NCBI RefSeq assembly: GCF_002843235.3
Contig: NZ_CP031123.2
Location: 1,426,001-1,490,000, forward strand
Origin: Providencia huaxiensis
GTDB taxonomy: Bacteria > Pseudomonadota > Gammaproteobacteria > Enterobacterales > Enterobacteriaceae
Direction of reading: 5' to 3'
DNA: 64,000 nucleotides
Part shown: piece by piece, positions 14,623-35,770 of the stretch
How the letters are laid out: every line of letters begins with the position of its first letter
Numbering within the stretch: the first letter of the stretch is position 1
Notes under the pieces: generated by a model
The model's database searches: none
Told to the model about the DNA's origin: nothing
Seen by the model: only the letters and a program-made list of their open reading frames with translations
Program-made: the position numbers and the translations under genes

Positions 14623-14670
14623 AGTATCGCAGCATGGGTAAATGATTAGTGTGTGAAGAGGTTCAGCACT
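14623..14670 (-). promoter_or_regulatory. Activator-dependent late promoter upstream of W
   Basis: On the minus strand AGTGCTGAACCTCTTCACAC (14651-14670) carries the shared dyad TGAA-CCTC-TTCA. Exactly 25 nt further on is GATACT as -10 (14623-14628). There is no -35. The same arrangement occurs at three other prophage promoters. The predicted start is about 14616. Confidence 0.7.
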
Positions 14671-14684
14671 TTATATGAGGGGAG

Positions 14685-15338
14685 TTAGGGTTTTGCGGTG
14701 CCAGTATCAGCGCCATTATTACCATTTGGATGTTTATGGCCTGTCAGAGAAATGTCACCTGCTTGAACATCACCGTCAGTTTGATAGTTCCCAGACGTCT
14801 GCGTGATATTACCCTCAAAGTTAGCGCCTTTACCACCTTTAATTGCCATACCGCCATTGCCCGTGATTTGTTTCATGGCGGTTAGCTGCTCACTGGTGGT
14901 GACCATGGGGGTGTTAAAATCGGCTTTTTCTTCCGCATTCACTTCATACTGTTTGCAATTAACCCGATAAAGGTCGCATTCAACATCAATAATACGTCCG
15001 CGCTTTAACACAATTTTAGCCCCTTCGTCGGTGTACAAGGCTACTTCGCCCGATTCCAGCCCTGCAAGGCGATAAGCGCCATGTTCAGTAGCAATGACAA
15101 TACCGTGAGAGGAACGACCACCTAATGGCAGTATAATCGCTTCTGTGCCTGGTAGAGGGCGAGAAGTAAACCCATAATGTTGAAAGATTTCCTGCCCTTG
15201 TAATGATTCACCCGATAAACCTTCACCTTGCATGGTTTGGACTTTACCTTCACTATCCGTGGCATTTAATACCGCCCTAAACGCCATTCGAATGCCGTTT
15301 AATGCTTGGTTAATGCGTTGATTAATTTGGTTCCACAT
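14685..15338 (-). CDS. Baseplate spike protein (Mu gp45, gpV type)
   Basis: A 217-residue central spike that pierces the outer membrane. From ATG 15338 it begins MWNQINQRINQALNGIRMAF, as in Mu gp45. An OB-like N-terminal domain (SRPLPGTEAIILPLGGRSSH) is followed by a beta-helical C-terminus with repeats (ITGNGGMAIKG, ANFEGNITQTSGNY). It ends in GHKHPNGN, where the HxH pair would bind the metal at the spike tip. A longer frame up to 15464 overlaps the previous gene and lacks family similarity. Confidence 0.87.
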   Translation of the reverse strand: MWNQINQRINQALNGIRMAFRAVLNATDSEGKVQTMQGEGLSGESLQGQEIFQHYGFTSRPLPGTEAIILPLGGRSSHGIVIATEHGAYRLAGLESGEVALYTDEGAKIVLKRGRIIDVECDLYRVNCKQYEVNAEEKADFNTPMVTTSEQLTAMKQITGNGGMAIKGGKGANFEGNITQTSGNYQTDGDVQAGDISLTGHKHPNGNNGADTGTAKP

Positions 15339-15348
15339 AACCCCCCCC

Positions 15349-16599
15349 TTACTGACCTGCTTGTGCGGGTAGGTCAACAGGTTTAATCTGGTCTTTTCCT
15401 TTCTTTTTACTGCCTTTTTTACCTTTTTTCTGTTTCGGGAAAGCATCGGGTATCCAGACAGCATCTTCTTTAAAGCGCAATTGCGTTACTGCACCGCCTG
15501 GGCGACCACCGATAAACGTGCGCCCCATTAAAAAGAAAATATCATCAATACCGTGTAACTCACTTTGAATGTGGACTCGTTGCCCTGGTGTCCATAGCTC
15601 ACCATTCGGGGTGCGGTGACCATACACCTCCGCTACAATATCAAGACCTGATAAGCGGGCATCGGCCATGGCTTTTTTGGCACGGTATTGGAGCTGCTCT
15701 TGATTATCAACATCGCCCGAGGTCAGAATTTGCGGGCGATAATACGGTACAGTTGGGTCGGTCACTTTTATTTTTAAACTATGCTGACCAGATGCACTCG
15801 AAACGGCCGCCGTGTCATCTTCTGCCGCATCATATGTGACTGTATATGCCTTGGGTGTTTTATCATTGGGGTCAGGTAATGGCACAGGTTTAATCGGTAA
15901 TTTTTTATTGCTGGTCGTGGTTGCATGGCTTTGAGCCAATACCATTAACTCTGAAAAACAGCCTTGAATATTGCGGCTATCGGACAGTGATATCAGGTTA
16001 TTACCTTGCCCGTCACGGCGCATAATGAGGTCTGCAACAGGCGGTTGATTATAATCAGGCCCACCTATAACCAAGGTTCCATCTGGATCGAACCACGGGT
16101 GTAAACCGCGACCTGCCGCCGCTTTCATGAGTGAATCCCACGCACGTTCGCCAGGCTCAATATGCACGCGGTCGTTACGGGTGACTCCATCGGCTTGAAT
16201 ACGGATTTTTTTAATCCCTAATGGCCGTACAATGCTGGCAATCACCTCATCGAGACTCAATTGACGAGCGCTAAAGATAGGTGCAGCGCAATCGACTAAA
16301 ATCGCGGAATCATCACGACCCGATAGGCTTAATGTCACACCACGACGGGAAACATCACGCGCCACAGTATCAACACGGCCTGATAACACCACATCATCAT
16401 TAATTTTCACTTTAACGGGCGCACCTCTTACCGCATCCGCAGGAAAATTACCCTCGGGTAACCCAAGGGATAATTGCCAGGCATCGGCCGCTTTTAAAAA
16501 ATCACTGTCAATACGGTAAGTTTGCCAATCACTGTGTGATGTGCCCCCAATTAACAGGGTGATTTTATCTTTTAACTCGGTATTATCGGGCGTAGGCAT
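15349..16599 (-). CDS. Baseplate hub protein (Mu gp44 / P, tail protein D-like)
   Basis: A 416-residue hub protein of the Mu gp44 type, structurally equivalent to T4 gp27/P2 gpD. It shows GRVDTVARDVSRRGVTLSLS near residue 75, FDPDGTLVIGGPDYN in the middle and the C-terminal TPGQRVHIQSELHGIDD. A basic Lys/Gly tail (KKGKKGSKKKGKD) precedes the end and is longer than usual. It overlaps the start of gene N's stop by 17 bp and is 10 bp from the spike gene. Confidence 0.85.
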   Translation of the reverse strand: MPTPDNTELKDKITLLIGGTSHSDWQTYRIDSDFLKAADAWQLSLGLPEGNFPADAVRGAPVKVKINDDVVLSGRVDTVARDVSRRGVTLSLSGRDDSAILVDCAAPIFSARQLSLDEVIASIVRPLGIKKIRIQADGVTRNDRVHIEPGERAWDSLMKAAAGRGLHPWFDPDGTLVIGGPDYNQPPVADLIMRRDGQGNNLISLSDSRNIQGCFSELMVLAQSHATTTSNKKLPIKPVPLPDPNDKTPKAYTVTYDAAEDDTAAVSSASGQHSLKIKVTDPTVPYYRPQILTSGDVDNQEQLQYRAKKAMADARLSGLDIVAEVYGHRTPNGELWTPGQRVHIQSELHGIDDIFFLMGRTFIGGRPGGAVTQLRFKEDAVWIPDAFPKQKKGKKGSKKKGKDQIKPVDLPAQAGQ

Positions 16600-18007
16600 T
16601 GATGATATCTCCGACTTGTAGAAAGTTTGGATTGCGAACCTGTGGATTTAAACGGTGCAGTTCGGTAGCACGACGATAATCGCCATACCAAGTGTGCGCG
16701 AGTAAATGAAAGTTAGCAGGCGCAGTGAGGGTCTTACGGGTCAATGGTGGGCGTTTCTCAATAACACGTAATCCCAAAGTTTGTACGCCTAGTGCAACTT
16801 CTTTGAGGGATGACACGACGCCTTGCCACAATAAACCGATAGGCTCAGCATCAGAGCTGACCGATTGTGTGCGAGGTTGGTAATCCGTGCGTAACGTAAT
16901 GATAGCCTGTAATGCTAACGTCCTTACCTCATTGACCATCAACTCAATATCAGCGGGTGACATTTGGTTAGGCTGTACAGTGTCAGCAAGCACTTGCGTG
17001 GTAATTGCTGCAATTTCAGCTACGGCCATCACTTGATACAGCACCACCAAATCCTGCACATCAGCAGGCTGCGCATTGCTTGGCATGGGGACGGTGGCCG
17101 CGCGTTCCTCTTGCACTAATGCAACAGGTAAACTGACCAATTCATCAACCACTGCAACACTATCACTCCACGCCGATAATAACGTGGTCGCATTTACCCC
17201 TTGCTCTACGTTGACGGTTTGTGAAGCGTTGGGAAGATAGCCATTTTGGGGCGTATTTGAAGCCATAAACGGCGAACTGTAGCCTTTATAGCTATTGGAT
17301 TGCTTTGTATTAATCACTCCAGGGAATTTTAAATTAAGCAAATCGCCTACGGCACTGGTGCGAACGTCTAAAACTGATTGCAAATCATTAATAAAGGCAC
17401 GCGGATAACTGAGATAATTCACGCCGTCACTGAATGCGCCATTAAAATCACCGCGCATGATAATTAAGGTGTTCATCATGCCTGAAAGAGCGCCTTTTCC
17501 TTTAGCAAGGTAGCGCAATCCCTTATTTACGGGTGCCATGACTTGCTCAAATAAATCACTCATGCGCTCTGAAAGCTGATTTATCTTGTCAAAGATATCA
17601 TCACCAAGCTGCTCAGGGTGCGCCTGTGCGAGTTGTGTACCTGTGTTCGCTTCTAGGAAAACCAACTCTAGGCTACAGCTATCCACATTTTCAGCCTCAT
17701 GACCGATGCTGTACTCAATGCATTGAGCCTGCGGAATAGAGCCGTGGACAGGGTGAATTAACTCACCTTTGCCAGGCTCATCGAGCACCGCAATGAGGTT
17801 ATCCATATCGCGTTTATAATTGTCGCCCCAAAATACGGCACTGATGCGAAAATTACGGGGTTTGCGCCCCAAATCCATGACATCGCCGCCATCAATAAAG
17901 GGGTATTCATGGGTTGCAACCTCACGGGATATACTGTCTTTGGTGTTGTACACATCAAAGGTCACCCCACGAAATGAGGCGTTTTGTAAATCGGTTTGCC
18001 AACTCAT
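16583..18007 (-). CDS. N: DNA circularisation / tail protein N (Mu gp43)
   Basis: A 474-residue protein of the Mu gpN family. The N-terminal domain (MSWQTDLQNASFRGVTFDVY, then HEYPFIDGGDVMDLGRKPR) is the conserved DNA-circularisation N domain. The C-terminus ends with LAHTWYGDYRRATELHRLNP and NPNFLQVGDIINAYAR, a LysM-like fold seen in tail-tip proteins. In Mu it belongs to the tail and is injected with the genome, where it protects the linear DNA ends. It overlaps the tape measure stop by 4 bp. Confidence 0.87.
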   Translation of the reverse strand: MSWQTDLQNASFRGVTFDVYNTKDSISREVATHEYPFIDGGDVMDLGRKPRNFRISAVFWGDNYKRDMDNLIAVLDEPGKGELIHPVHGSIPQAQCIEYSIGHEAENVDSCSLELVFLEANTGTQLAQAHPEQLGDDIFDKINQLSERMSDLFEQVMAPVNKGLRYLAKGKGALSGMMNTLIIMRGDFNGAFSDGVNYLSYPRAFINDLQSVLDVRTSAVGDLLNLKFPGVINTKQSNSYKGYSSPFMASNTPQNGYLPNASQTVNVEQGVNATTLLSAWSDSVAVVDELVSLPVALVQEERAATVPMPSNAQPADVQDLVVLYQVMAVAEIAAITTQVLADTVQPNQMSPADIELMVNEVRTLALQAIITLRTDYQPRTQSVSSDAEPIGLLWQGVVSSLKEVALGVQTLGLRVIEKRPPLTRKTLTAPANFHLLAHTWYGDYRRATELHRLNPQVRNPNFLQVGDIINAYAR

Positions 18008-20277
18008 GGGAACATCCCTCCTGTGGTGCGGCCTGCATCTTGACCATTGACACGGTTGACCGACTCAGCCACTTGCTGGCCGTCGAGTTCAACCACGCTG
18101 CGCACTTCAATCACAGGGGGTGGCGGTGGGTTTTTAAGGGCTTCGAGTAAAGGTTGAAGTACACCTGATTTTTCAAGGGTGTCAAAGGTGATCACATCCT
18201 GATTGATTGCACCTTCAAACTTAGGTAGCCCCGTAATTCCTAATATTTGATTGACGACATCTTTCGCGATCACACCCGCTTGATTCGCTTGCTCTTGGTC
18301 TTTGGTGTAGCGTTGTAACCACTCTTCGTTTTCTGTGGAGTAACCTTCGCCGAATTGATACCACGGCTGATATTTTTCACGAGCGGCATCAATCATGGAT
18401 TGGGGGTAGTTGGCACGAATTGATGCCCACCGTTCCTCACTTCCCATCAAGGCTGCATCTTCTTCAGGAGAGGTAATTGTTGCCAGCTCTGTCGCAATCA
18501 TGCCCCAACCAACTAAAGACCCCCAACGACCAAAAAGCCCAGAGGATTTAGCACCAGCCCCCGCACCAGTCGGTAAAGGAGAGTTTTTTCCACCAGGTAC
18601 ACCTGAAATACCCTCACCACCAAATAAGAATTTTAATGCAGCAAAGGCAATAGCAGCTTGAGTCATGGCTTCAATGCCTGTTTTGGCGCCCATCACAGCG
18701 GTAGTAAGTCCTGGAAACTCTTTACTAAAGTCCGTAAATTTATCAGCTAAATTACCCAAAGAGTCTGACAATGGTTTTACAGCACCCATCTGAGCAAAAT
18801 CACTTTGCTCTTTAGCTTGTTGTACTTTGAAGTCATTTTCCTGTGCGATTAGTCCATAAGAAACATATCCCTCACCTTCACCTTTGGGTAAATAAAGTTG
18901 TTTTTTACTTTCAGTTTCAACTTGCTTGATATAACCACGATACTCACGCGCAGCGAGAAGTCCCATAAGCGCTTGTTGGTCGGCGATTAATTGACCGATA
19001 GCGGAGGACTCAAGAATTCGACGTTGTGATTCAAGCAATTTTTGATACTCAGGTGAGTTTTTATCTGTTTTTGATAGCTGTTCTTCAAGTTTTCTAAACT
19101 CAGGGTTTTGTCGTGCGATGACATCTGTAAGTCCAACCAGAGCTGAAATAGGGTCAATACCTTTTGCTTGAGCCTGCGTTAATGTACCCGCCATATCAAT
19201 GCCATATCCATCCACTTTAATGGCTTTAGCTTTCGTGGCGAGTTCCTGACTTGAAACCTTATTGAGTAAGTTGACAAAGTTATTACCTGCGGTATCGGCT
19301 GTTGGCGCGTTTTTCATCATCCCTTGGCTATAGGCTAATAACTTAACGATATCCTCAGAACCACTATAACCAATGGCTTTAGCCTTAGATAAAATTTCAG
19401 GCAACCACTTGGCCATATCAGAAAACTCAAATGAGCCTTCTTGGCCAGAGCGGATAGCTGCATCCATCACTTTCATCATTTCATCAGCAGAGGTGATCCC
19501 GTACTCTTTCAGTGATTCAGTCACTTTTGCTAACTCTTCACCGCCAACCCCCGTAGCTGTTGAATATTGTTGTAAAAGTGGCATTAACTCTTTGATTTCC
19601 TCAAATTCAAAAACGCCTTTTGCAAGCAATCCACCAAGAAGATTAGCTGCCTCTTCTTTTGTTCCTCCGCCTTTGGCAATAGAATCTTGAATAATAATAT
19701 CTAACTCTTTTTTACCTTCGATACGCCCTTGGATATCACGATCATTAAAGGCGACATTACTCATATCGGCGAGGGTTCGGCTATAACTCATTTGTTTTTT
19801 AACAGGAGGAGCAACAGCCATTCCTCCTGCGACCAGAGCACCACCTGCTTTAGCAATGCTACCTGCTATATCAGAGACTCGTGCTAATCTATTCATGCCT
19901 TGCATTTCAACTCTAAGCTGACTAACACGCTGGCGCATACGCTCATAGGCGCGTGATTGTTCATCAATAGAGAGTGTACCGCTACGAGCTAAACGGTTAT
20001 AAGATGCAATAGTTTGCTGAATTTCGCGCTGTATGGCACGCTCAGCACGGATACCTAGTGTTTCCCGGGCACGGTTTTGACGCTTGATTTCTTCACCCAA
20101 TGCCCGATTTTGACGTATACCTTCTTCTGAGGTAGTGCGTTGGCGCTTACCGAGTTTCTCTTGCGCTTTTTCAGCGTTCTGGCTCTCTTTGGTGCTATCA
20201 CGCATCGCTTTGGTAATTGCCTTAGAGGCGTCATCACGTGCCGAAATGACCATTGATAGTTTAAATTCTTTCGCCAT
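18004..20277 (-). CDS. Tail tape measure protein (Mu gp42)
   Basis: A 757-residue tape measure with an N-terminal coiled coil (about residues 1-125, rich in Lys/Glu/Gln/Arg). It is followed by the TP901-type core (SIAKAGGALVAGGMAVAPP and LMPLLQQYSTATGVGGEEL) and a Gly-rich hydrophobic stretch near residue 550-600. Its length sets tail length. ATG 20277 lies 5 bp beyond the stop of the frameshift extension of the tail chaperone, exactly where the tape measure is expected. Confidence 0.9.
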   Translation of the reverse strand: MAKEFKLSMVISARDDASKAITKAMRDSTKESQNAEKAQEKLGKRQRTTSEEGIRQNRALGEEIKRQNRARETLGIRAERAIQREIQQTIASYNRLARSGTLSIDEQSRAYERMRQRVSQLRVEMQGMNRLARVSDIAGSIAKAGGALVAGGMAVAPPVKKQMSYSRTLADMSNVAFNDRDIQGRIEGKKELDIIIQDSIAKGGGTKEEAANLLGGLLAKGVFEFEEIKELMPLLQQYSTATGVGGEELAKVTESLKEYGITSADEMMKVMDAAIRSGQEGSFEFSDMAKWLPEILSKAKAIGYSGSEDIVKLLAYSQGMMKNAPTADTAGNNFVNLLNKVSSQELATKAKAIKVDGYGIDMAGTLTQAQAKGIDPISALVGLTDVIARQNPEFRKLEEQLSKTDKNSPEYQKLLESQRRILESSAIGQLIADQQALMGLLAAREYRGYIKQVETESKKQLYLPKGEGEGYVSYGLIAQENDFKVQQAKEQSDFAQMGAVKPLSDSLGNLADKFTDFSKEFPGLTTAVMGAKTGIEAMTQAAIAFAALKFLFGGEGISGVPGGKNSPLPTGAGAGAKSSGLFGRWGSLVGWGMIATELATITSPEEDAALMGSEERWASIRANYPQSMIDAAREKYQPWYQFGEGYSTENEEWLQRYTKDQEQANQAGVIAKDVVNQILGITGLPKFEGAINQDVITFDTLEKSGVLQPLLEALKNPPPPPVIEVRSVVELDGQQVAESVNRVNGQDAGRTTGGMFP

Positions 20278-20279
20278 GA

Positions 20280-20812
20280 TTAACCTCGTTTGGATTTTTG
20301 CTTACGTTGACGGCGGGACTTGACGCGAGTCGTTTTCGATTTTGTTGATGTTGACTTGCCACCATGCAGGCGGTTTAAAGCATTGAGATAGCCGTCCAGG
20401 GTAGGACGGCTCATAGAAAGGCATTGTTGCTCAGTGAAACCGTACTTACCGAGGGCTAAGACGACGGTTCGGAAGCTGTCTCGTCGTTGTTCTTGGCTCG
20501 CCGCTTTTTTTTTGCGATATCGATGGCCTCATCAATCACGTCATAGTCCATACTGGTGAGGTTATCCAGCAGGAAGTCTGTAGTAATAACGTCTTGCGGA
20601 ATATCCCCCAACTTAATTAGGGCGCGTTTGGTTAATGCCATGCGATAGTAAAGATCAGAGCCTTTACTATCGGTAGAGCCGCAAACTTCTTCGGTCTCAT
20701 CAAGCGCATCATAAACGTCACGCATGACAGGGATTTTGACGGCAAATATCAAGTGACGTTTGCCGTCATGGTCGATTCCATCCAGTAACATCAGCGGTTT
20801 TACATCAGCCAT
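20280..20812 (-). CDS. Tail assembly chaperone, long form made by -1 frameshift
   Basis: Ribosomes slipping back one base on the A9 run at 20505-20513 (heptamer A-AAA-AAG in frame) leave the short chaperone frame. They continue without a stop to TAA 20280-20282, adding about 75 residues (KAASQEQRRDSF..., LALGKYGFTEQQCLSMSRP..., then a very basic tail). The fusion is about 177 aa. Such G/GT-type frameshifts between the tube and tape measure genes are conserved in long-tailed phages. The original Mu is reported to use a -2 shift, whereas this phage clearly has a -1 site. Confidence 0.75.
20456..20812 (-). CDS. Tail assembly chaperone, short form (Mu gp41)
   Basis: A 118-residue protein between the tail tube and tape measure genes, as Mu gp41: MADVKPLMLLDGIDHDGKRH at the start and DYDVIDEAIDIAKKKRR before the slip site. 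It coats the tape measure during tail polymerisation. The zero-frame product ends at TAG 20456-20458 soon after the A9 slippery run, so both short and long forms should be made. Its ATG overlaps the tube gene stop by one base. Confidence 0.82.
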   Translation of the reverse strand: MADVKPLMLLDGIDHDGKRHLIFAVKIPVMRDVYDALDETEEVCGSTDSKGSDLYYRMALTKRALIKLGDIPQDVITTDFLLDNLTSMDYDVIDEAIDIAKKKRRAKNNDETASEPSS

Positions 20813-21186
20813 TATTCAATCACCTTACGCAATGCATTCAGTTTTAGATCACGTTTTGCTTCGTTATCGGTGGAATATTTTTCCCCGACCTCTGTCACAA
20901 AACAGTCAAGGTATGAGATACGCTTACCACCTGAGCCACTAATCGGGTACTGAGTCAGCTTCGAGCCTTCAATCGCGCCCCAGTCCATATCACCGTTTAA
21001 AGGGATCACAACAGAAATAGACAGTTCATAGGTGGCAATGCCGCGCATGAATCCCTTGGCGCGTCCTGTTTTGTTCATGGTTTTGACAAGCTTACGGCCT
21101 GTGACTTCTTGCACATCCATGTCGGTAACTTCCACTTCACGGCCGTCAATTTCTAAAATAATCGCACCTGCATATTCTTCTAACAT
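20812..21186 (-). CDS. M: Tail tube protein (Mu gpM, gp40)
   Basis: A 124-residue tube protein located directly after the sheath gene. It has the layout of Mu-type gpM (GAIILEIDGREVEVTDMDVQ near the start, AKGFMRGIATYELSISVV in the middle). It forms the inner tube of the contractile tail. It is separated from the sheath gene by an 11-bp gap carrying a Shine-Dalgarno. Confidence 0.87.
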   Translation of the reverse strand: MLEEYAGAIILEIDGREVEVTDMDVQEVTGRKLVKTMNKTGRAKGFMRGIATYELSISVVIPLNGDMDWGAIEGSKLTQYPISGSGGKRISYLDCFVTEVGEKYSTDNEAKRDLKLNALRKVIE

Positions 21187-21197
21187 CAGTGTTCTCC

Positions 21198-25552: not shown

Positions 25553-26653
25553 TTACTCTCCCAACTGTTTTTTAAATTCTTCGGGGTCAAGCCCGAATTG
25601 GCTGCAAATCGCCAACTGGTCTTCGGTCAGCTCCGTGGTCACAGAGGTACTTTGCTCTGCACCTGCGGGCGCTTTACCCTTGGATTGCAGTTGTGTTAAT
25701 GCCGCAATCGGGGTGGCTTTTTCGAGATAACCTTTAAGTGCGTCAGGGTCTTTACGCCCTAAGTCTTCCGCCCAATCTTTCATGGCCGTGTTGAGACGTC
25801 CATCACTGAGCGCGGCCTGGATCAGACCACTCACTTCCTGTTGCTGACCTGCGTTCAATGCTTCGTTGTACTTCGCTTGCAGTTCAAGATAGCCTGCAAG
25901 TGGTACATGTTTGGTTGGGTCGTAGGCTTTACTGGACAGGTCAGCAATCAAGGTTTCTTTGCCTTTGAGTAAATCCACTAAGCTTTGATTGGCGGCGACG
26001 GTCGTGCCTTGACCGTTTGAAATCAGGTCAATCGCTTTTTGCAGTTCTGTTTTGATATCTTCTGCTGTTGCCGTGGCGGGCAAGTTCAGCATCCAACGCA
26101 GGTTACTGAGTAGCTCTTTGATGAGTTCGTCATCCACAGTGAGATCCTCTTCGGTGGGTTGAGAAAGTGCAGCAAACTGAGAAGCAGCGGCAAGCATCAC
26201 TTCATCCATACCATCTACTGCGGGGGTGTTGGTCAGTGCGGCATGAAGCAAGACTGTCACATGACCGTTTTTGTCATAGTTAAAAACAGGGGAAATAAAG
26301 CGGTACTCTTTGGCGGTAATGGCCGCTGCTGCCGCTTCCGTCCACTCCACGTTGATAGCATAAAGACCATCGCCTTCACGCCACGCAATATCCGTAAACC
26401 AACCCGCTGCGGGCGCAGGTTTACCATTTTGAGACGCGCGGAGGGTTTGGTGTTCATAGTCAATCACGTAAGGTGTTTGACGGGCTGCGACCTGTGCAAT
26501 CAACGTTTCAGCGATTTCACGCGTCATTAACCACGCGTCACATTCAACGGGGCGACCATCGACAGCACGAAACTCGCCAGCAGGGAAGAGCTGGATTTCG
26601 TTAAGGTTTTGGCTGAGAATTTCAGCGACACAAGCAGCAATGTATTTTTTCAT
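25553..26653 (-). CDS. I: Head maturation protease and scaffold (Mu gpI)
   Basis: A 366-residue Mu-type protease. The N-terminal half has MKKYIAACVAEILSQNLNEI, TPYVIDYEHQTLRAS and EYRFISPVFNYDKNGHV. The C-terminal half is helical and acidic and acts as scaffold; in Mu an internal in-frame start yields a separate scaffold Z, and MDEVMLAAASQF (about residue 187) could serve here. ATG 26653 is chosen because the promoter box and -10 lie just upstream, inside the longer frame to 26749. The predicted transcript start falls on this ATG and there is no Shine-Dalgarno, so the mRNA may be leaderless. Confidence 0.85.
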   Translation of the reverse strand: MKKYIAACVAEILSQNLNEIQLFPAGEFRAVDGRPVECDAWLMTREIAETLIAQVAARQTPYVIDYEHQTLRASQNGKPAPAAGWFTDIAWREGDGLYAINVEWTEAAAAAITAKEYRFISPVFNYDKNGHVTVLLHAALTNTPAVDGMDEVMLAAASQFAALSQPTEEDLTVDDELIKELLSNLRWMLNLPATATAEDIKTELQKAIDLISNGQGTTVAANQSLVDLLKGKETLIADLSSKAYDPTKHVPLAGYLELQAKYNEALNAGQQQEVSGLIQAALSDGRLNTAMKDWAEDLGRKDPDALKGYLEKATPIAALTQLQSKGKAPAGAEQSTSVTTELTEDQLAICSQFGLDPEEFKKQLGE

Positions 26654-26659
26654 GCGGGC

Positions 26660-26707
26660 AGCATAACAACTGCCAGTAATGGGGAGTGTGTGAAGAGGTT
26701 CAGCACT
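26660..26707 (-). promoter_or_regulatory. Activator-dependent late promoter upstream of I
   Basis: On the minus strand AGTGCTGAACCTCTTCACAC is identical to the W promoter box. Exactly 25 nt after TTCA comes TATGCT as -10 (26660-26665). It corresponds in position to the C-activated Mu promoter PI. The predicted start is about 26653. Confidence 0.72.
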
Positions 26708-28574: not shown

Positions 28575-30141
28575 GGAGGCGCCCCCACACATCCGCCACA
28601 AAGATAGCCTGGCTCAATAACGTTTGAAGCGTGCTGTCATCCAAAAGCGGATAACTTTGCGCAATAATATTCATGGCGTCATCGACACTTTGACCTTGCT
28701 TGAGAGCGGCCACCATCGGCGTTAAGAGTTGGCTCATGGCTGCCCCAATGGTATCAGACTGCGGCGGTGCATTATCGAGGGTGATTTGTGCGGGATCTAT
28801 TCCATCCGCTTCTACCGTTTGACTTAGCACGCCCAACCCGTAACGTGAATGACCGTAGCTTAATGGTGTGGGTAACAACGGCAGGGCTTGGCGCGCTTGC
28901 AATACAGGCTCATCCTTTTGGGCTTGCGGGATAGCGGCTTTCTTATGCACCCAAGAAACAGGGATACTCCCCACACCTGCGGTCACTAACTTACCCACCG
29001 CATCAGCAAACTGTGGTAAATCAACGGCTTCACGGGTATCAAACACAAAACGTGGTAAACGACGTGGGTTCACGTCTTGATAGCCATTGAGAGCCAACAA
29101 CATTTGGATAAGCTGGCGAAACATCCCCTCAAGCTGGCGAGCATCGGCGGTTTTTAAATCGTGACGCACTTCGTTATGCACATTACCGAGGGCATTGGTG
29201 GAGCTTTTTCCGTCCGCCTGTGAGGTTAATGTCCCCCCTAAAATTACTTTGGATTGTGTCCGTTCCGCCCAGGCAATCATTTCCATGAACGGGTCAGAGC
29301 CACCCCCTGCGGCGCTTTCAAAGTTGATGTCTGTCCCTTGTTGAACGGTTGCAACCGCATCATGCCCCAAGTTAACCAGTGCATCTAACAGTTTATCTTT
29401 GTCCTCATCGGACGTGCCCGCAGGGTATTTGGCAATCCGTGCAGGCAAGCCATAAATCTCTAAGAACTCAGCAAAATCACGCAGCGAAAAGTTTTTAAAC
29501 AGATACGGCCAGACGAGAACGCGGAATAACCCACTGGTGGCAATAAACCCACTGCGGGCATTGTGACGATGAACCAGCCAACCAAACGGCCATAACTCCG
29601 AGCCGTTCATTTCATCGGTGTTGAGGCGAACTTCGTCGCGTTGCTCAGGCAAGGTGCGGAACCAATAATGGGGACGCAGGTGCAAGGCTTTGGGTAACCA
29701 CGTGTTATCAAGGCGATCCCATTCCAACTCTTGGCAACTAAACCCATGTCCCACCGCTTCCATCCCATTCAGTATGATATCTTCAATTTCAGGCATCGCA
29801 TCAAACCAGGCTTGCACGTTCGCGGTCATGTCTAGCTCGGCTTTGGTGGCATTTTTTGGTGGCTCAATCGACCAATCCAACGTTAATAACGCATTCTTGC
29901 GCTTTTCCATTTCGGCAAAGATATGGCCGTCACGCTCGACCATATCCCCAAACAGGCAGGCCTGCGCACTCAAGTCACCGCGTTCAGCCGCTTGTAAGAT
30001 ACGCGGAAGCTTACGGATAGTGAGTCCACGTGAGGGATGATCAGGATAAATGCGACTCATCCGTGCTAATTTTACGGTTTGTGACGTTTTTAAAACTTCA
30101 CGTTGTAACGGGTTACCGTGTATATCCACAATTTTTGACAT
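28561..30141 (-). CDS. Portal protein (Mu gp29, DUF935)
   Basis: A 526-residue Mu-type portal of the DUF935 family. It shows KIVDIHGNPLQREVLKTSQT at the start, ISCQELEW-like GHGFSCQELEWDRLDNTW near residue 130, and GGTLTSQADGKSSTNALGNV near residue 300, all family landmarks. It forms the ring at the unique vertex where terminase docks. It is 9 bp from the terminase stop, in the standard order terminase-portal-F. Confidence 0.92.
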   Translation of the reverse strand: MSKIVDIHGNPLQREVLKTSQTVKLARMSRIYPDHPSRGLTIRKLPRILQAAERGDLSAQACLFGDMVERDGHIFAEMEKRKNALLTLDWSIEPPKNATKAELDMTANVQAWFDAMPEIEDIILNGMEAVGHGFSCQELEWDRLDNTWLPKALHLRPHYWFRTLPEQRDEVRLNTDEMNGSELWPFGWLVHRHNARSGFIATSGLFRVLVWPYLFKNFSLRDFAEFLEIYGLPARIAKYPAGTSDEDKDKLLDALVNLGHDAVATVQQGTDINFESAAGGGSDPFMEMIAWAERTQSKVILGGTLTSQADGKSSTNALGNVHNEVRHDLKTADARQLEGMFRQLIQMLLALNGYQDVNPRRLPRFVFDTREAVDLPQFADAVGKLVTAGVGSIPVSWVHKKAAIPQAQKDEPVLQARQALPLLPTPLSYGHSRYGLGVLSQTVEADGIDPAQITLDNAPPQSDTIGAAMSQLLTPMVAALKQGQSVDDAMNIIAQSYPLLDDSTLQTLLSQAIFVADVWGRLHADS

Positions 30142-30150
30142 AATAAATTC

Positions 30151-31782
30151 CTACCAAGCACCCGACCCAAAGCGTCGACCTTCCGGTCGGCGGGGACGAG
30201 TTTGAATATCGGTGTTACCTGCACGAGAAACCGCCAAAGACCAAAGCATGTGCAAGGCATCAGGGCCATCATCATGGTCAGCCTTGGGAAAGTGGCGCAG
30301 TTGGTCAATCAGCGTGTGTTGTGTTGCGTGCAAACGAATAAGCCCATTGACCATATGAGGCTGTAAAGACTCAATGCGCAAGGCTTTATCACTGTTTGGA
30401 ATGACAGGGATAGCAGGAACGGGTATCCCTAACATCGCAGAACGCTTCACTAATTCGGTACGTAAAAACTCCTGGAAGGCGATGGATTCAAACGCCCACG
30501 TTAAACAGCCGTATTCGCGCTGATAGTCAATCACATCGGAGATAATGCGGTCAGGTAAACGGCGTTTAATATCTGCCTCAACCACATCAAGGATACCTGT
30601 CATGCGATTGAATCCGCCCACGAGCAAGGCTGACGGGTCACGAGTTTTATTCTGCTTACCGAGGCTTGGGTCACATGCTCCGTAAAAAATCCAATCGGAG
30701 AGATGGTTAGACCAAAAGGTAATGCAACTGGCAAAAATCGCATCTTCACCGCTCACGGGGTCATTTTGGTATTCGGAGTCAAACGTATCATGACCATCAC
30801 GCGCACGAATTTTCATGAGGGTTAACAGTGGGCGTGCCGCCCAAGAGACAATTGCCCCCTCTAACATCGCAGGCTCATTCTCATGGTAGAAGCGCTCAGC
30901 TTCATCAATTTGTTTATTGTGGATCAAGGTTTCCCATTCATCCCACAATTTCATATTGGCAGGCATCTGGAGAATGGCTTTAAACCGTGCCGTCCGCCAC
31001 ATGGCATTATTGAGGGTACGAGAGAGTACCGAGTCATAGTGCAAGATGGTTCCGATGTAAACAATGTCAGTTTTGCCGCCTGCTTCACCGAGTGGCATCA
31101 CCGTTTTTTTTAACCAGTTATGCAGCTTCTCGCGCTGCTCAGGGTTACGCACCATCTCATCGTTTTCAATATCATCGAGCACCACTAAGTCAGGGCGATA
31201 TGGCCCATGTCGCAACCCCCGCAATTTCTTACCGCTACCCGCAACTGTCACTTTGATATTATTGCGTGTGACGATAGTCCCCATCTGCCAAGTACGCCCT
31301 TGACCGCAAATATCAGGGTAATCATTTTTTAGTCGTGGGTTATATTCCAGTTCGGCTTTGATGGCTTCGAGCATCGGGTAGGCTTGGTCGATACTGTCCA
31401 TAATGATGACCGGATACTTTTTCAGCTCACGGATAATGCACCACAGCGTAAAGAGTTGACTCACCAGCGTCGATTTAGCCTCACCACGCGGTGCGGCGAT
31501 GGCGTCACTTTCGGCATCTGAACTCGCAACAATGGCAGGTAAACGACTAAAAAGATAATTATGCAACTGACTACGGGAGGGGTGGCGCACATAATGTGGG
31601 AAATAGGTTTCCACAAAGAAGCTGTAGCCGTTCTCGACATCTGCGACTTGCGATCGCCTTGCCTCAGCAGCCTCGGGGTCAGCATCAAAGCCTAAGCACT
31701 CCGCCTCAATGGTTTGGCGCAGTTCGGTGATGTAGTCCTGGAGTGAGGCTTTAAATGCTTTTAATGAAACCTTTTTTGCCAT
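30151..31782 (-). CDS. Terminase large subunit (Mu gp28)
   Basis: A 543-residue DNA-packaging motor. The ATPase part has a variant Walker A APRGEAKSTL (about residue 95-104) and Walker B LVVLDDIENDE (about residue 206-216). The RNaseH-like nuclease part shows YGACDPSLGK (about residue 362) and the late DHDDGPDALHM, giving acidic metal ligands. It cuts host-flanked Mu DNA by headful. ATG 31782 is preceded by a short gap to the divergent moron at 31836. Confidence 0.92.
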   Translation of the reverse strand: MAKKVSLKAFKASLQDYITELRQTIEAECLGFDADPEAAEARRSQVADVENGYSFFVETYFPHYVRHPSRSQLHNYLFSRLPAIVASSDAESDAIAAPRGEAKSTLVSQLFTLWCIIRELKKYPVIIMDSIDQAYPMLEAIKAELEYNPRLKNDYPDICGQGRTWQMGTIVTRNNIKVTVAGSGKKLRGLRHGPYRPDLVVLDDIENDEMVRNPEQREKLHNWLKKTVMPLGEAGGKTDIVYIGTILHYDSVLSRTLNNAMWRTARFKAILQMPANMKLWDEWETLIHNKQIDEAERFYHENEPAMLEGAIVSWAARPLLTLMKIRARDGHDTFDSEYQNDPVSGEDAIFASCITFWSNHLSDWIFYGACDPSLGKQNKTRDPSALLVGGFNRMTGILDVVEADIKRRLPDRIISDVIDYQREYGCLTWAFESIAFQEFLRTELVKRSAMLGIPVPAIPVIPNSDKALRIESLQPHMVNGLIRLHATQHTLIDQLRHFPKADHDDGPDALHMLWSLAVSRAGNTDIQTRPRRPEGRRFGSGAW

Positions 31783-31835
31783 TATGATGACCTGTTGTTT
31801 AATCTGTTATGACCCATTGATAAAAGGAAAATTAA

Positions 31836-32336
31836 ATGAGTATTGCTGATATCATTCCTGGCTATGACAGCCTCAAAAAAGTCATTAGTACCGTTAAGGG
31901 TGCGATTGACACTAAAGAAGCCTTGTCTATCATGAAAGTTGAATCCGATATCTACCCGCAGCTTATTCAATTACAAAGCCAAGTGCTGACGGCGCACCAA
32001 CTGTATGAGGCGATCTTGAGCCAAAAAAACGCGGTAGAACGCGAATTGATAGAGCTTAAAAACCACCTGATAAAACTTGAAGATTATGAGCTGCATACTT
32101 TCAGTAGTGGCAGCACGGTGTTTAAACTCAAACCATCTCAAGCAGGGACGCAGCCCCTTCATTATCTTTGTCCCCACTGCAACCACGAACATATCGCGTC
32201 GATATTGCAACCAGGCCAGCCGGAAACTTTTCATCACACCCTCCAATGTCCACGTTGTAAAACCACTTTCTTAACCGAAAAAATAAACTCAACCCCTCGC
32301 GTCAGAACTAACCCACGTAAAGATGGGGCATGGTGA
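31836..32336 (+). CDS. Plus-strand moron encoding a C-terminal zinc-ribbon protein
   Basis: A 166-residue protein encoded against the direction of the late operon, between the terminase gene and the DUF1804 gene. The N-terminal 90 residues are predicted helical/coiled coil (LIQLQSQVLTAHQLYEAILS, VERELIELKNHLIKLEDYEL). The C-terminus has two CxxC pairs (YLCPHCNHEH and LQCPRCKTTF), which form a zinc ribbon. Similar helical-plus-ribbon proteins occur as phage accessory genes, but no function is known. The opposite orientation implies its own promoter and possible expression from the lysogen. Confidence 0.75.
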   Translation: MSIADIIPGYDSLKKVISTVKGAIDTKEALSIMKVESDIYPQLIQLQSQVLTAHQLYEAILSQKNAVERELIELKNHLIKLEDYELHTFSSGSTVFKLKPSQAGTQPLHYLCPHCNHEHIASILQPGQPETFHHTLQCPRCKTTFLTEKINSTPRVRTNPRKDGAW

Positions 32337-32337
32337 C

Positions 32338-32427
32338 CTAATTATCATGATTGGGGTTTAAAACACTGTTCAGTGTATGCTTACCCCGTAATACCAGTGA
32401 TGCCTTAAGCAATCGTTCAGGCATCAT
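32338..32427 (-). CDS. Possible 29-residue ORF
   Basis: The minus-strand frame MMPERLLKASLVLRGKHTLN, ending at TAG 32338-32340, follows the interrupted small gene by a few bases in the late-operon direction. It has no recognisable similarity and a weak start context. It could be a tiny phage gene or chance. Confidence 0.25.
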   Translation of the reverse strand: MMPERLLKASLVLRGKHTLNSVLNPNHDN

Positions 32428-32432
32428 TGCGC

Positions 32433-32645
32433 TTACTCCCAACTCATCATCGTATCAAGAACAGCTAAAGCACCGCCCATTAAACCTAGGTAATTAGGGT
32501 AGCGCTCCTGTAACTGAGTAATGAACACTTGTGTCTCTTTTTCTGCTTCCGCTAACAGGTGCTTTTCCTCTTCGGTTGCTTCCGTCGAAACAAAACCACG
32601 TATTTGATATTAATAGTTTTTTAATTGTTTTTTAATTTCATCCAT
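32433..32645 (-). pseudogene. Small packaging-region gene interrupted by an in-frame stop
   Basis: ATG 32643-32645 overlaps the TGA of the DUF1804 gene and opens a 71-codon frame: MDEIKKQLKNY, TAA (32610-32612), then YQIRGFVSTEATEEEKHLL... QVFITQLQERYPNYLGLMGG... MMSWE and TAA at 32433. After the TAA there is no usable start codon, yet the downstream part keeps coding character (acidic helix, conserved-looking hydrophobics). The simplest reading is a nonsense mutation in a small translationally coupled gene. Readthrough cannot be excluded. Confidence 0.6.
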
Positions 32646-33138
32646 ATGCACGCTCCAATTCTTCGGCAAAGGCTTCTAAAATTTCCACAAACACCACGTT
32701 GTGTTGTGGGTACTTGTCACTGATAAACTGCCCGAACCGTTGGATCACATCGATGGCCGTGGCCAATTTATCCGTTTCAGGCAGTATTTTTTTACTTGCA
32801 GACGTGGCTTTATTAAAGGCATCCGCAAGGCTTGCCAACAGCTCAACACGCTTCTCGGCAGGAATATCAGGGTTTGTATTGATTTGCTCTGTCACGGCTT
32901 GGCACTGCACAACAAGGCTCATCAATACCGCACGACCTGCATCTTCAACGCCGCCACCTGCCAACATGTGCGCGGCACGCATTTTGTCCCAATCGTCATT
33001 TTTGTCTTGGGCTTCCTTCTTCCAGCGCCGCGCGGTCACAAAGGCCACGCCAATTTGACTCGCCGCCACCTCTAGGGAAAGCTGACTAAAAATGTAAGCG
33101 CGCCGTAACTTATCGCGTGTCTCTTGCGGATACGCCAT
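32638..33138 (-). CDS. DUF1804 protein, probable small terminase-type subunit
   Basis: A 166-residue DUF1804 protein: MAYPQETRDKLRRAYIFSQL followed by a helix-turn-helix region LEVAASQIGVAFVTARRWKKEA. DUF1804 proteins precede the large terminase in many Mu-like phages and are taken as the DNA-recognition subunit. ATG 33138 fits the family start; a longer frame to 33192 overlaps the preceding gene. Here the large terminase is unusually displaced by about 850 bp holding a moron and a broken gene. Confidence 0.78.
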   Translation of the reverse strand: MAYPQETRDKLRRAYIFSQLSLEVAASQIGVAFVTARRWKKEAQDKNDDWDKMRAAHMLAGGGVEDAGRAVLMSLVVQCQAVTEQINTNPDIPAEKRVELLASLADAFNKATSASKKILPETDKLATAIDVIQRFGQFISDKYPQHNVVFVEILEAFAEELERAYG

Positions 33139-33140
33139 AA

Positions 33141-33389
33141 TTACAAGCCCATTTTCGCGCGGATTAAAATCACCGCCGTACTGACCACACAAGCGGTGAC
33201 ACCACCTGAAATAGCGCCTGCCACATAACCACGGCGAATAGCCCCGTTGGTTGCCTCTTCACGAATGAGGTCAATTTGCTCATCCATGTTTTCCATTTGA
33301 CGTTCAATTCGGTGTTCAATCCGATTTAACTGGCTGTTAATGGACAGTAAAACGTCTTTTTTACGTCCTTTTTGTGGGCGTTTTTTCAT
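33141..33389 (-). CDS. Small coiled-coil membrane protein
   Basis: An 82-residue protein with a basic N-terminus (MKKRPQKGRKKDVLLSINSQ), a coiled-coil stretch (RIEHRIERQMENMDEQIDLI) and one C-terminal transmembrane segment (YVAGAISGGVTACVVSTAVIL, slightly shortened here to AGAISGGVTACVVSTAVIL). It lies between the lysis cassette and packaging genes, where Mu has gp24/gp25 (DUF2730-like). A relationship is possible but not clear. Confidence 0.6.
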   Translation of the reverse strand: MKKRPQKGRKKDVLLSINSQLNRIEHRIERQMENMDEQIDLIREEATNGAIRRGYVAGAISGGVTACVVSTAVILIRAKMGL

Positions 33390-33613
33390 CTTAAACTCCT
33401 TGTTGATGGTGGCTTGATGGCCTCATGGGTATCGTGATAACGGCAAACAAGGCCGTCTAAGTAAGTAGTTCGATTGCTGAGGTCTTGCGCGCGGTCACAG
33501 GTACTGACGACACGTAACCAAAACCCGGTACTCAGAAAAATAAATGCGCACATCAGGATAGCGATAGCGGCTAACACGGGCATACAGCGTCGTAATAATG
33601 GTGTCATCTTCAT
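33386..33613 (-). CDS. Small membrane protein of the lysis region
   Basis: A 75-residue protein (ATG 33613, MKMTPLLRRCMPVLAAIAIL) with a single N-terminal transmembrane segment or signal anchor and a short extracytoplasmic tail containing two cysteines (STCDRAQ, GLVCRYHDTHEA). It overlaps the Rz stop by 4 bp and the next gene by 4 bp. Its function is unknown; the position suggests an accessory lysis or superinfection role. Confidence 0.55.
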   Translation of the reverse strand: MKMTPLLRRCMPVLAAIAILMCAFIFLSTGFWLRVVSTCDRAQDLSNRTTYLDGLVCRYHDTHEAIKPPSTRSLR

Positions 33614-34167
33614 GGGGTGACCTCTCTGCGGCACTCTTTAACGACGTCTTTTACATAGCCTTGTAAGTAGTCGAGCTTGTCCTGATCTCGTTTGATATCG
33701 GTTCGGATATCTTCAACAAGGAGTCCAGCTTCAACAGAGAATTGGATTTCGGCTCCATCGCCCACGGTGCTGGCGCTGGAATGGTGGCTTGCGGTGAGCT
33801 GACAGGTTGCAAGATCGGCGCGGGCGAACTGCAACCGACGACGGCCAGTAGACAAATCATCACGCAAGGCTTGAGATTGGGCTTTTTCACGGGCTAACTC
33901 CTGTGTGTAATACGTATCTAATCGCGATTTTTCACGCTGGGCGTCTTCCATGCGTAGCATGGCTTGTTGTGTTGCGGCGGATGCCTCATCGGAGATAGCC
34001 TTTAACTGGCTGGCATACGTCGCTTGGTTAGTTTGAATAATGGTGTTGTAGTGATAACGTGCCAGCATGACACCCGCAAATGCACCCGCCGCAAATAACA
34101 ACCACGCGCCTACAATGAGTGCAATTTTCAATGAGCGAGTTAATGTGTTTTCTGTGATTGAGTTCAT
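33610..34167 (-). CDS. Rz-like inner-membrane spanin
   Basis: A 185-residue i-spanin. From ATG 34167 it has a cytoplasmic MNSITENTLTRSLK, one transmembrane helix (IALIVGAWLLFAAGAFAGVM) and a long periplasmic coiled coil (SQLKAISDEASAATQQAMLR onward). It should span the periplasm with the nested Rz1 lipoprotein and fuse inner and outer membranes at lysis. Rz1 (33651-33890) is encoded within it in another frame, the classic nested arrangement. Confidence 0.82.
   Translation of the reverse strand: MNSITENTLTRSLKIALIVGAWLLFAAGAFAGVMLARYHYNTIIQTNQATYASQLKAISDEASAATQQAMLRMEDAQREKSRLDTYYTQELAREKAQSQALRDDLSTGRRRLQFARADLATCQLTASHHSSASTVGDGAEIQFSVEAGLLVEDIRTDIKRDQDKLDYLQGYVKDVVKECRREVTP
33651..33890 (-). 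CDS. Rz1-like outer-membrane spanin lipoprotein, nested in Rz
   Basis: A 79-residue frame embedded in the Rz gene: MKKPNLKPCVMICLLAVVGC has a basic start, a hydrophobic core and the lipobox LAVVGC. This is followed by a proline-rich segment (SSPAPILQPVSSPQATIPAP) typical of Rz1 proteins. After lipidation at the Cys it would sit in the outer membrane and bind the tip of Rz. Confidence 0.78.
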   Translation of the reverse strand: MKKPNLKPCVMICLLAVVGCSSPAPILQPVSSPQATIPAPAPWAMEPKSNSLLKLDSLLKISEPISNEIRTSSTTYKAM

Positions 34168-34727
34168 GGCGTTGTCCAAGTGGTATTCATCTGCATTAAC
34201 TCCCAACACAACAGCTCAGCTTCTTGATTACGGCGGATAACTTGGCCGTAGCAACCACCAGGCTGACCTTGAGTTTTACGACAGTCCTTCCCACCATCAA
34301 AGACCCAACGGGGGATCTCTTTACAGGCACCCTCGATGTCACCTGCCTGTAACTTGCGGTAGAAGGTGGATGAAAAGCATTTACCCGCACCGATGTTATA
34401 AGGGCAAAATGAAGCGATACCCGCGATTTGAGGCGGTGTGAGTGACACAGGAACATGCTTTTTCACCCAGGCAATGGCTTTATCACGCTCAATAGCATTT
34501 AAGCGTTCGCATTGTGCCTTAGTCAGCTTTTCACGGGGCTTGACAGCACGGCCATCAATACGGGTGACGCCTTGGCATACTGTCCAAATTCCGCCTGCAT
34601 CTTGATAAGCGGTGGTGAAGTTACCTTCTTTTTCTTTGATAAACTGGTCAAATATCTGGCTTTCACTGGCTCCACCCACAATCAATGCAACAACGGCGGC
34701 AGTCAGGTAACGCTGCTTCATATCCAT
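34164..34727 (-). CDS. SAR endolysin, GH24 lysozyme
   Basis: A 187-residue T4/R21-type lysozyme. The N-terminus MDMKQRYLTAAVVALIVGGA is a weakly hydrophobic, Ala/Gly-rich signal-anchor-release segment, so export uses Sec rather than the holin hole. The catalytic triad follows the pattern E-x8-D-x5-T in KEGNFTTAYQDAGGIWTV. ATG 34727 is chosen for the AAGGA 8 bp upstream. Several cysteines (CQGVT, FCPYN, GKCFS) may regulate activation. It overlaps Rz by 4 bp. Confidence 0.88.
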   Translation of the reverse strand: MDMKQRYLTAAVVALIVGGASESQIFDQFIKEKEGNFTTAYQDAGGIWTVCQGVTRIDGRAVKPREKLTKAQCERLNAIERDKAIAWVKKHVPVSLTPPQIAGIASFCPYNIGAGKCFSSTFYRKLQAGDIEGACKEIPRWVFDGGKDCRKTQGQPGGCYGQVIRRNQEAELLCWELMQMNTTWTTP

Positions 34728-34728
34728 G

Positions 34729-35037
34729 TTATAAATCCTTGGGGGATTTGATGGATGCTTCAATCAGCTTTTCGGCATCCTCATGAGAAACGGGTTTATT
34801 CGAGAAATAGTTCTCTAAAATACGCGTTCGGCGTTTTTGCTCTCGGCGATTCAATAGGTAGGTCAATGTCCCAAGCAGCACACTGGCAAACACACCAATG
34901 AGGAATCCCCACTCATACAATGACAAGCCACTAAAAAACAAACCCAATCCAGCGAACCAATACGATATTTGAGTGATGAACTGGGTTATCTTTTCATCCA
35001 TGCATCTGTCCTTTTCAAGGAAAGAGATCGGGTTCAT
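34729..35037 (-). CDS. Holin, class II (pinholin-like)
   Basis: A 102-residue holin with two transmembrane segments (FITQISYWFAGLGLFFSGLS and WGFLIGVFASVLLGTLTYLL) and a basic cytoplasmic tail (NRREQKRRTRILENYF), resembling phage 21 S. ATG 35037 has a strong GGAGG. A second ATG at 35001 also has an AAGGA-type site, giving a form 12 residues shorter. The two starts may make an antiholin/holin pair as in phage 21. A pinholin fits the SAR endolysin encoded next. Confidence 0.75.
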   Translation of the reverse strand: MNPISFLEKDRCMDEKITQFITQISYWFAGLGLFFSGLSLYEWGFLIGVFASVLLGTLTYLLNRREQKRRTRILENYFSNKPVSHEDAEKLIEASIKSPKDL

Positions 35038-35120
35038 GGCAACCTCCTCACGCTCACATAACAGCCTCCCAAAAACCGAGGGAAATGGACGAAAAACCCA
35101 ATCAAAAATAAGAGAGTTTG

Positions 35121-35170
35121 AGTATAAGGAGATGGGAAAATAGAGAGTGTTTGAAGGGGTTCAGCAGTTA
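35121..35170 (-). promoter_or_regulatory. Activator-dependent promoter of the lysis cassette
   Basis: On the minus strand CTGCTGAACCCCTTCAAACAC has the shared dyad TGAA-CCCC-TTCA. TATACT (-10, 35121-35126) follows exactly 25 nt after TTCA. It corresponds to Mu Plys. The predicted start is about 35114, leaving a normal 5' leader before the holin ATG. Confidence 0.75.
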
Positions 35171-35175
35171 GCTAC

Positions 35176-35197
35176 CAAACCCGAAAGGGGGTTTTTA
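35176..35197. terminator. Hairpin after the second Mor-like gene
   Basis: AAACCC-GAAAGG-GGGTTTTT, about 25 bp past the mor-like stop. The T-run is on the plus-strand side, so for the minus-strand transcript it is a weak terminator at best. Confidence 0.35.
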
Positions 35198-35222
35198 GTG
35201 TGTCATAAATCACACTCGAATA

Positions 35223-35681
35223 TCAATCAAATAAACGGTCTTGTGCGGCTTCTTCTGCATCAAGGTCACGCAATAGCTTCCACCCAATGCGATCACTAAA
35301 ACCGTATTTAGGGCATAACAGCGCCATGGCTTGGCGGCGTGAACGGCCTTGTTCGCCCAACGTTAACAACTCTTTGATAAAGCGTTGATTGCGAATTTGG
35401 CGAAAAGCTTCTTCGCACCGTGGGATATAAAACGCCGTTTTACCAATGTAGTGCAAGAGCTGCTTGCATTCGTCTTCGTTTAACACTTCGCGTAATAGGC
35501 GATGCACGCCCCCCGTGCGCTCTGCGGCCTCACCACTGATACCTGCTAATGTAACACCACCAAAGCGGCTAATGAGCCGTGATGTGGCGTTGTAGCCAAT
35601 AACATCAATAAGCTGTTTAGCTGAATCTGGTAAGAGCGTTTCGAGCCGTGCAAGTTCAGCTTCGTCAATCGTGGTTTGCAT
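35223..35681 (-). CDS. Mor/C-family transcription activator, second copy (C position)
   Basis: A 152-residue Mor-family activator: LLPDSAKQLIDVIGYNATSR then FGGVTLAGISGE (dimerisation part), TAFYIPRCEEAF and a C-terminal helix-turn-helix (RRQAMALLCPKYGFSDRIGW). In Mu, Mor activates the middle promoter for C and C activates the late promoters. This copy lies downstream of its own dyad-type promoter and just before the lysis cassette, matching C. ATG 35681 follows GGGGG. It is the best candidate to bind the CTGAACCYCTTCA boxes. Confidence 0.82.
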   Translation of the reverse strand: MQTTIDEAELARLETLLPDSAKQLIDVIGYNATSRLISRFGGVTLAGISGEAAERTGGVHRLLREVLNEDECKQLLHYIGKTAFYIPRCEEAFRQIRNQRFIKELLTLGEQGRSRRQAMALLCPKYGFSDRIGWKLLRDLDAEEAAQDRLFD

Positions 35682-35724
35682 GTTACCCCCTAAAATGAAA
35701 ACACCCTCCAAAAGGAAGGTGTTC

Positions 35725-35770
35725 AGTATTTCATTTTTATTGGGGCTTGACGTGTTGAAGGGGTTCAGTG
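35725..35770 (-). promoter_or_regulatory. Activator-dependent middle promoter upstream of the second Mor-like gene
   Basis: On the minus strand CACTGAACCCCTTCAACACG contains the shared dyad. AATACT (-10, 35725-35730) follows exactly 25 nt after TTCA. A second partial copy (CTGAACACCTTCC) overlaps the -10 and start region, a possible feedback site. It starts right after the stop codon of the secreted-protein moron. Confidence 0.7.

Follow-up and report, generated by a model that had tools for sequence, protein, structure and literature searches.

What reads the four nearly identical sites that stand upstream of genes in a Mu-like prophage of Providencia huaxiensis, and is it the same reader at each of them? 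The prophage lies in a stretch of 64,000 nucleotides (assembly GCF_002843235.3, contig NZ_CP031123.2, positions 1,426,001 to 1,490,000; hereafter the window, numbered from its first nucleotide), and all the features located below are on its minus strand. The sites precede the second of two genes for Mor-family activators (promoter Pm), the lysis cassette (lys), gene I and gene W. They are probably the binding sites of the prophage's own two activators, Mor1 and Mor2, acting in a two-step cascade whose binding, activation and start sites we infer from the sequence. A difference of one base between the sites, A or G, likely keeps the two steps apart.

The repeat appears as the exact 13-mer CTGAACCYCTTCA, present in four copies in the window, at 14654-14666, 26691-26703, 35152-35164 and 35756-35768, identical except at one C/T position. 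An earlier note on this DNA had located the last three correctly and the first one off by one (14655-14667). It had also placed a -10-like hexamer exactly 25 nt past TTCA, and this holds at the four sites with the hexamers it gave: GATACT (W), TATGCT (I), TATACT (lys) and AATACT (Pm). Its statement that no -35 box is present agrees with our search at spacings 15-19, in which none of the four sites has a match above 3/6. The exact 13-mer occurs 8 times in the 4.8 Mb genome, i.e. the four copies of the window prophage and four copies in a second Mu-like prophage of the same chromosome (C6:1768209-1788693); it is absent from the rest of the host genome, and the reversed control pattern gave no copy in the whole-genome scan. 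All 8 copies are followed by a -10-like hexamer at the identical distance. Thus the stray copies lacking a -10, which the note had named as a sign against a promoter element, are not found in this genome. The second prophage (L027, L028; G000 C6 1757-1797 kb) is related to that of the window and has the same four sites, which are not independent because the aligned blocks listed are 91-99% identical between the two. The sequence to the left of its Pm differs from that of the window and is apparently another accessory gene. Four copies on one strand of the gapped 12-mer were not reached in 60 Markov sequences of the same 37 kb (maximum 3). A -10-like hexamer (A2, T6, at least 4/6) is found at 2.0% of positions, so that four out of four at one fixed offset has a chance of about 1.6e-7.

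The conserved unit is not the 13-mer. It has 16 bp, made of two 5-bp half-sites round a 6-nt spacer (5-6-5). This register is set by a prophage of Intestinirhabdus alba (L010), in which a single Mor gene was detected, its product 59% identical to Mor2, and whose lys and I sites are the perfect inverted repeat GCTGA-ACCCCC-TCAGC. The dyad TGAA-N4-TTCA of the earlier note was therefore dropped for GCTGA-N6-TCAGC, the perfect form. The operators in the window are ACTGA-ACCCCT-TCAAC at Pm (35754..35769, the predicted Mor1 target), GCTGA-ACCCCT-TCAAA at lys (35150..35165) and GCTGA-ACCTCT-TCACA both at I (26689..26704) and at W (14652..14667). The corresponding -10 hexamers are at 35725..35730, 35121..35126, 26660..26665 and 14623..14628, and start 39 nt after the start of the 16-mer.

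We looked for the element in 201 phage and prophage sequences (some represent the same contig twice), of which 157 had usable lys and I regions; clustering left 68 representatives, the window included, and the search of genome contigs yielded one relative only. In a motif-free test which assumes no -10, the best 16-nt match between the regions upstream of lys and I reached 15-16 positions in 41/68 representatives, the maximum with shuffled I regions being 14. About 30 of these 41 pairs, counted by eye, have CTGA as in the window. When 36 of the 41 pairs were anchored on GA and TC (or CC), the other 5 having no anchor, a -10-like hexamer (at least 4/6 of TATAAT) was present at offset 39 in 48/72 sites and at any other offset from 25 to 55 in at most 13/72. 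The anchored test took the place of a pair score with a sliding -10 offset, which isolated no single spacing because its 21-nt score window slides along. A position matrix, trained on the same sites that it later scored, and with a threshold of 8 bits set once the null maximum was known (3.1 in 68 control stretches), detects the element at lys in 58, at I in 60 and at both in 54 of the 68 representatives. The scan of related prophages that the note had called for thus brings out the element well beyond the window.

A first pairing, with regions and a -10 filter that were too narrow, had missed the element in G126, Kp4852-3, ST405, VW6B, JBD5 and Mu; in G216, and in part in G080, it had put the element in the wrong place. 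The motif-free and matrix tests recovered it in the first five; Mu is outside these tests, its Mor not being among the query matches. In phages with a single Mor gene the left half-site is ACTGA, GCTGA, GTGGA, GTTGA, GACGA or a near variant, clade by clade. Another element, TTACCCACTACGCCCC, is common to lys and I at L208:3883 and 12023 and at L209:18782, where Mor is without the SDR of the recognition helix; it may form an operator class of its own.

The outer base of the left half-site differs among the four sites of the window: A at Pm (ACTGA), G at lys, I and W (GCTGA). The four sites are therefore not one identical operator, as the note had supposed. The same partition is found in the representatives with two Mor genes, Pm being A-type (CC-ACTGA) in 7/7 and lys and I G-type in 7/7; the one exception is the non-representative L087, described below. 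Four two-Mor loci from genome searches (L368-L371) also have A at Pm and G at lys, though L371 is the second prophage of this same chromosome, and both L369 and L370 are close to phages counted before. The exact string CCACTGAACCCCTTCA is present in 17 distinct Pm segments of two-Mor phages, which were selected by that string, and is absent in L087.

This base follows one residue of the activators. Mor1 (36226..36681, after gemA) matches PHROG 836 at 2.7e-35 and Pfam PF08765 with 31.3 bits (cut-off 24.9). Mor2 (35223..35711) also matches PHROG 836 strongly (7.7e-32) and PF08765 below the cut-off (19.7 bits, E 8.7e-4). The predicted model of Mor2 (mean predicted local distance difference test score, pLDDT, 78.5) has a C-terminal helix-turn-helix (HTH) with helices at 125-136 and 140-155, in which Arg126 would be the second residue of the first helix. 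A sequence-profile search of the Protein Data Bank (PDB) gave weak matches throughout: Mu C came nearest among the solved proteins (9l0x with E 0.019, 9vw8 with 0.029), and Mu Mor reached E 0.89 (1rr7). Where the first HTH helix begins there is a conserved Ser; the key residue, two positions further on, is Val in Mor1 and Arg126 in Mor2, and is Arg where the outer base is G. The 68 representatives have 75 such proteins, and 71 of these go with a site of at least 8 bits (the other 4 were left out of the count): 31 Arg and 1 Lys with G, 39 other residues with A, 0 exceptions. Among the alignment columns tested for the outer base this column ranks first. With all loci, i.e. 220 distinct records that include near relatives and one Lys record with a truncated HTH alignment (L205), the counts are 118 Arg with G, 3 Lys with G and 99 others with A. 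At W promoters, where the site was chosen with the outer base masked, the rule is kept in 12/12 phages or prophages, some of them near-identical, and three of these have A. Since the outer base changes together with one activator residue, the two activators likely read two versions of the site.

A natural chimera, L087, bears on this point. The N-terminal 94 residues of its Mor1 are 94.7% identical to Mor1 of L060; its HTH portion belongs to the Mor2 type (66.7% to Mor2 of L063 over 45 residues), with Arg at the key place. Its Pm begins GTGCTGA instead of CCACTGA, i.e. with G as outer base. The foreign DNA begins midway through mor1, takes in the accessory gene and stops at the left border of the Pm element. 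Downstream of this border, the rest of Pm, Mor2 (96%) and the lys site agree with those of L060. As Mor2 is unchanged, the change at Pm goes with Mor1. The attribution of the sites to the Mor/C family, proposed in the note, thus gains from a base that covaries with a Mor HTH residue and from a chimera that agrees, which together point to these proteins as the probable readers.

The A/G difference might nevertheless be without effect, all four sites forming one operator for one class of activator, read by both Mor proteins or by Mor2 alone with feedback on its own promoter. The 13-mer, the same at the four sites but for one C/T, would agree with this, and so would the right half-sites, which are imperfect and variable, and the ACCCCT spacer common to Pm and lys in the window. 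Against a single operator stand the outer bases of the two-Mor representatives, A in every Pm and G in every lys and I site, the same Pm/lys difference in L368-L371, and L087, in which Pm turned G-type along with the HTH of Mor1 while Mor2 stayed. We regard it as unlikely.

The residue-base rule was then fixed before new data (Arg or Lys gives G, any other residue A), with the outer base and its flank masked in the choice of sites. A first held-out set of 40 new proteins of <85% identity gave 14 with a site above 7.07 (the 99th percentile of the null), for 21 sites: Arg with 5 G and 1 T, Lys with 1 A, other residues with 9 A, 3 T and 2 C. For Arg against G alone the Fisher test gives 2.9e-4, the sites not being independent. 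In a second set, taken from bacterial genomes at <85% identity, 9 of 12 proteins had a site; no dereplication was applied here, and L378 and L381 seem close to each other. It gave Arg with 3 G, Leu with 5 A and Ser with 1 C, for which the rule is right in 8/9. Taken together, Arg goes with G in 8/9 and residues other than Arg with G in 0/21 (15 A, 3 T, 3 C); the fixed rule is right for 22/30. The distant relatives L295, L301 and L334 have Ala or Leu at the key residue and C or T as outer base, and the code may therefore have more letters. On a tree built without the key column, Arg/not Arg requires 7 changes (at least 4 of them forced by the starred branches) and G/not G requires 5. The covariation is consistent, and it rests on few independent events.

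Several results weigh against two activators reading two versions of one promoter element. As to the element, the 13-mer with two mismatches is less striking than the exact one: 6 matches for 1.86 expected, a number reached in 2/100 shuffles, and one of the two extra matches (35714-35726) overlaps the -10 of Pm and the 5' arm of the adjacent hairpin. Four of the 68 representatives (L203, L207, L208, L209) reach 8 bits at neither lys nor I; in L049 lys is below the threshold and its -10 is at offset 38; and just 90/125 sites of at least 8 bits, Pm included, have a strict -10 at offset 39. Concerning the rule, the 71 agreements out of 71 are not independent, as it was noticed on part of the same data, and in the first held-out set it is right for 14/21 sites. 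Over both sets the clause "else A" failed six times (15/21 right), on sites of residues other than Arg that have T or C; T is also the base for one protein with Arg, L303 (36% identity); and Lys is inconsistent (G for L200, A for L287), L287 being the one failure of the clause that treats Lys as Arg. A site above threshold is present in just 14/40 and 9/12 held-out proteins, and one null stretch scored 25.8, far over 7.07. The 4 independent pairs on supported branches of the tree (2 agree, 0 disagree, 2 undecided) are too few for a significant sign test. L087 is one single contig, and linkage alone could explain it because one recombinant block spans the HTH, the accessory gene and the operator edge. 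Finally, Foldseek with the Mor2 model found no good solved match (1rr7, E 7.4, template modelling (TM) scores 0.22/0.36).

A reader of another kind might also be considered, a host protein or some other phage protein, the association with the Mor HTH then being due to shared ancestry or linkage. Switches on the tree are indeed few, and mor and the lysis promoter are close neighbours. Yet the I and W sites, about 8 and 20 kb away from mor2 in the window, obey the same rule, the element is positioned within 1 bp of the Mor site of Mu, and, as said, the rest of the host genome has no exact 13-mer; this explanation appears very improbable. That the sites are a chance repeat or a byproduct of terminator sequence, as the hairpin beside the Pm copy with its 13-mer-like 5' arm might suggest, is hardly credible given their confinement to the two prophages, their recurrence in relatives and the fixed -10 offset.

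In the two-step cascade that we favour, the early operon would make Mor1 after derepression. At Pm the A-type ACTGA would serve instead of a -35 box and be bound by Mor1, which would thereby induce Mor2. Mor2 would in turn bind the G-type GCTGA at the lysis, I and W promoters and switch on the lysis, head and tail genes. The two versions of the site would be told apart at the outer base of the left half-site by activators with different residues where the first HTH helix begins (Mor1 Val, Mor2 Arg126). Gene order and operator classes are compatible with a Mu-type two-step cascade, in which the steps would not cross-activate. To a more general proposal we give an even chance: that the Mor family has an operator code, in which the identity of residue 2 of the first HTH helix decides the outer base (Arg for G, most others for A); that paired activators differ there so as to keep middle and late steps separate; and that HTH, accessory gene and operator edge are exchanged as one cassette, which would re-wire the switch in a single recombination.

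The surroundings of the promoters have features of their own. Directly 3' of the Pm -10 lies a terminator-like hairpin (35699..35724; -16.9 kcal/mol and z -4.2 for a 41-nt stretch) with a T-rich tail, a 5' arm resembling the 13-mer and arms that covary in relatives, as judged by eye. Since the -10 directly precedes it, a start 6-7 nt later would fall inside the 5' arm. The hairpin would stop transcripts coming from upstream, and transcripts from Pm would not form it in full. On the other side of Pm, between it and Mor1, is an accessory gene (35772..36224), variable in relatives and unmatched in PHROG and Pfam up to E 0.001, whose stop codon abuts the operator. To the left of the operator, 17 distinct Pm segments mostly differ in sequence, yet TAA or TAG abuts the element every time. 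In the single-Mor phages G080 and G126, mor is likewise separated from the lysis element by about 0.5 kb.

The first gene of the lysis cassette encodes a holin (34729..35037; PHROG 1350, 2.1e-19). I is a head maturation protease (25553..26653; PHROG 328, 2.8e-110), taken here from the ATG at 26653, 6 nt past the -10; the mechanical open reading frame extends to 26749, and in several relatives the match starts at about residue 32-33 of this long frame. W, a gp46-like baseplate wedge subunit (14265..14615; PHROG 180, 5e-35), has its ATG at 14615, 7 nt past the -10. The first in-frame start codon lies 6-7 nt past the -10 in 42/60 phages at the I promoter, and a start codon does so in 12/12 at the W promoter, window included. 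The late mRNAs of I and W are therefore predicted to be leaderless.

As far as the literature consulted goes, Mor/C control has been worked out in Mu; PMC4461284 deals with how Mu C acts on RNA polymerase. The Mor/C family and its promoter logic are already known. A search of open-licence papers by title and start of abstract found no operator for this clade, no rule linking residue and base, and no exchange of such a cassette; to that extent these three appear to be new. The analysis supplies predicted late-promoter operators for many Mu-like phages of Klebsiella, Haemophilus, Mannheimia and Pseudomonas, including the Casadabanvirus JBD5. One residue-base pair and a natural chimera make the avoidance of cross-talk by paralogous phage activators directly testable with natural proteins and promoters, and the predicted late operators of JBD5 are testable in a laboratory phage.

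In Mu, the Mor site extends from -51 to -36 and consists of two 5-bp repeats with a GC-rich 6-nt spacer, 16 bp in all (PMC4390567; the 5-6-5 layout also in PMC4287176). Its 16-mer is AGTAAAGCCGGTTAAT, according to the base table of PMC4390567 and the Mu record, and starts 38 nt before TATCCT if this is the -10 of Pm, compared with 39 nt here. Both systems have a Mor-family activator after gemA and a 5-6-5 element replacing the -35 box (PMC4390567, PMC4287176), and in both the operon under the target promoter includes a second gene of the Mor family (Mu record). The centre of our element fits near -43.5, reckoned relative to the -10 only, and is accompanied by no -35 above 3/6, as expected for a Mu-type promoter. 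The half-site differs, AGTAA in Mu and ACTGA or GCTGA here. An element at the place of the Mu Mor site with another half-site sequence speaks for the new operator specificity that the note had suggested for the Mor/C family. Mu Mor and C have no mutual match with Mor1 and Mor2 at 1e-4 (tblastn), whereas they match each other at 38%; the Mu HTH aligns poorly, and the residue-base rule is drawn from phages other than Mu.

The likeness to the C system of Mu (Plys, PI, PP, Pmom) lies in a second activator and in late promoters that serve the lysis genes and I. The correspondence with the Mu promoters drawn in the note is accordingly good for three sites, those preceding mor2, the lysis cassette and I. 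It fails for the fourth: the annotated late tail promoter of Mu, PP, sits inside N upstream of P, and Mu has a further promoter before com/mom, whereas the additional late site of our prophage is that of W (gp46).

Closer to the present system are Mu-like phages in which one Mor gene was found, e.g. SuMu, Mannheimia 3927AP2, VW-6B and JBD5; a word search of the SuMu paper gives 0 occurrences of the whole word "promoter". JBD5 (L074) has predicted late operators GTTGAACCCCTTC at 10483 and 19762, with an annotated start codon directly after the -10, also at the gene following mor. These four phages differ from the window prophage in having no Pm step and in their half-sites, GTGGA, GACGA or GTTGA. 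They nevertheless have the same layout at lys and I, and SuMu and 3927AP2 have it at W too.

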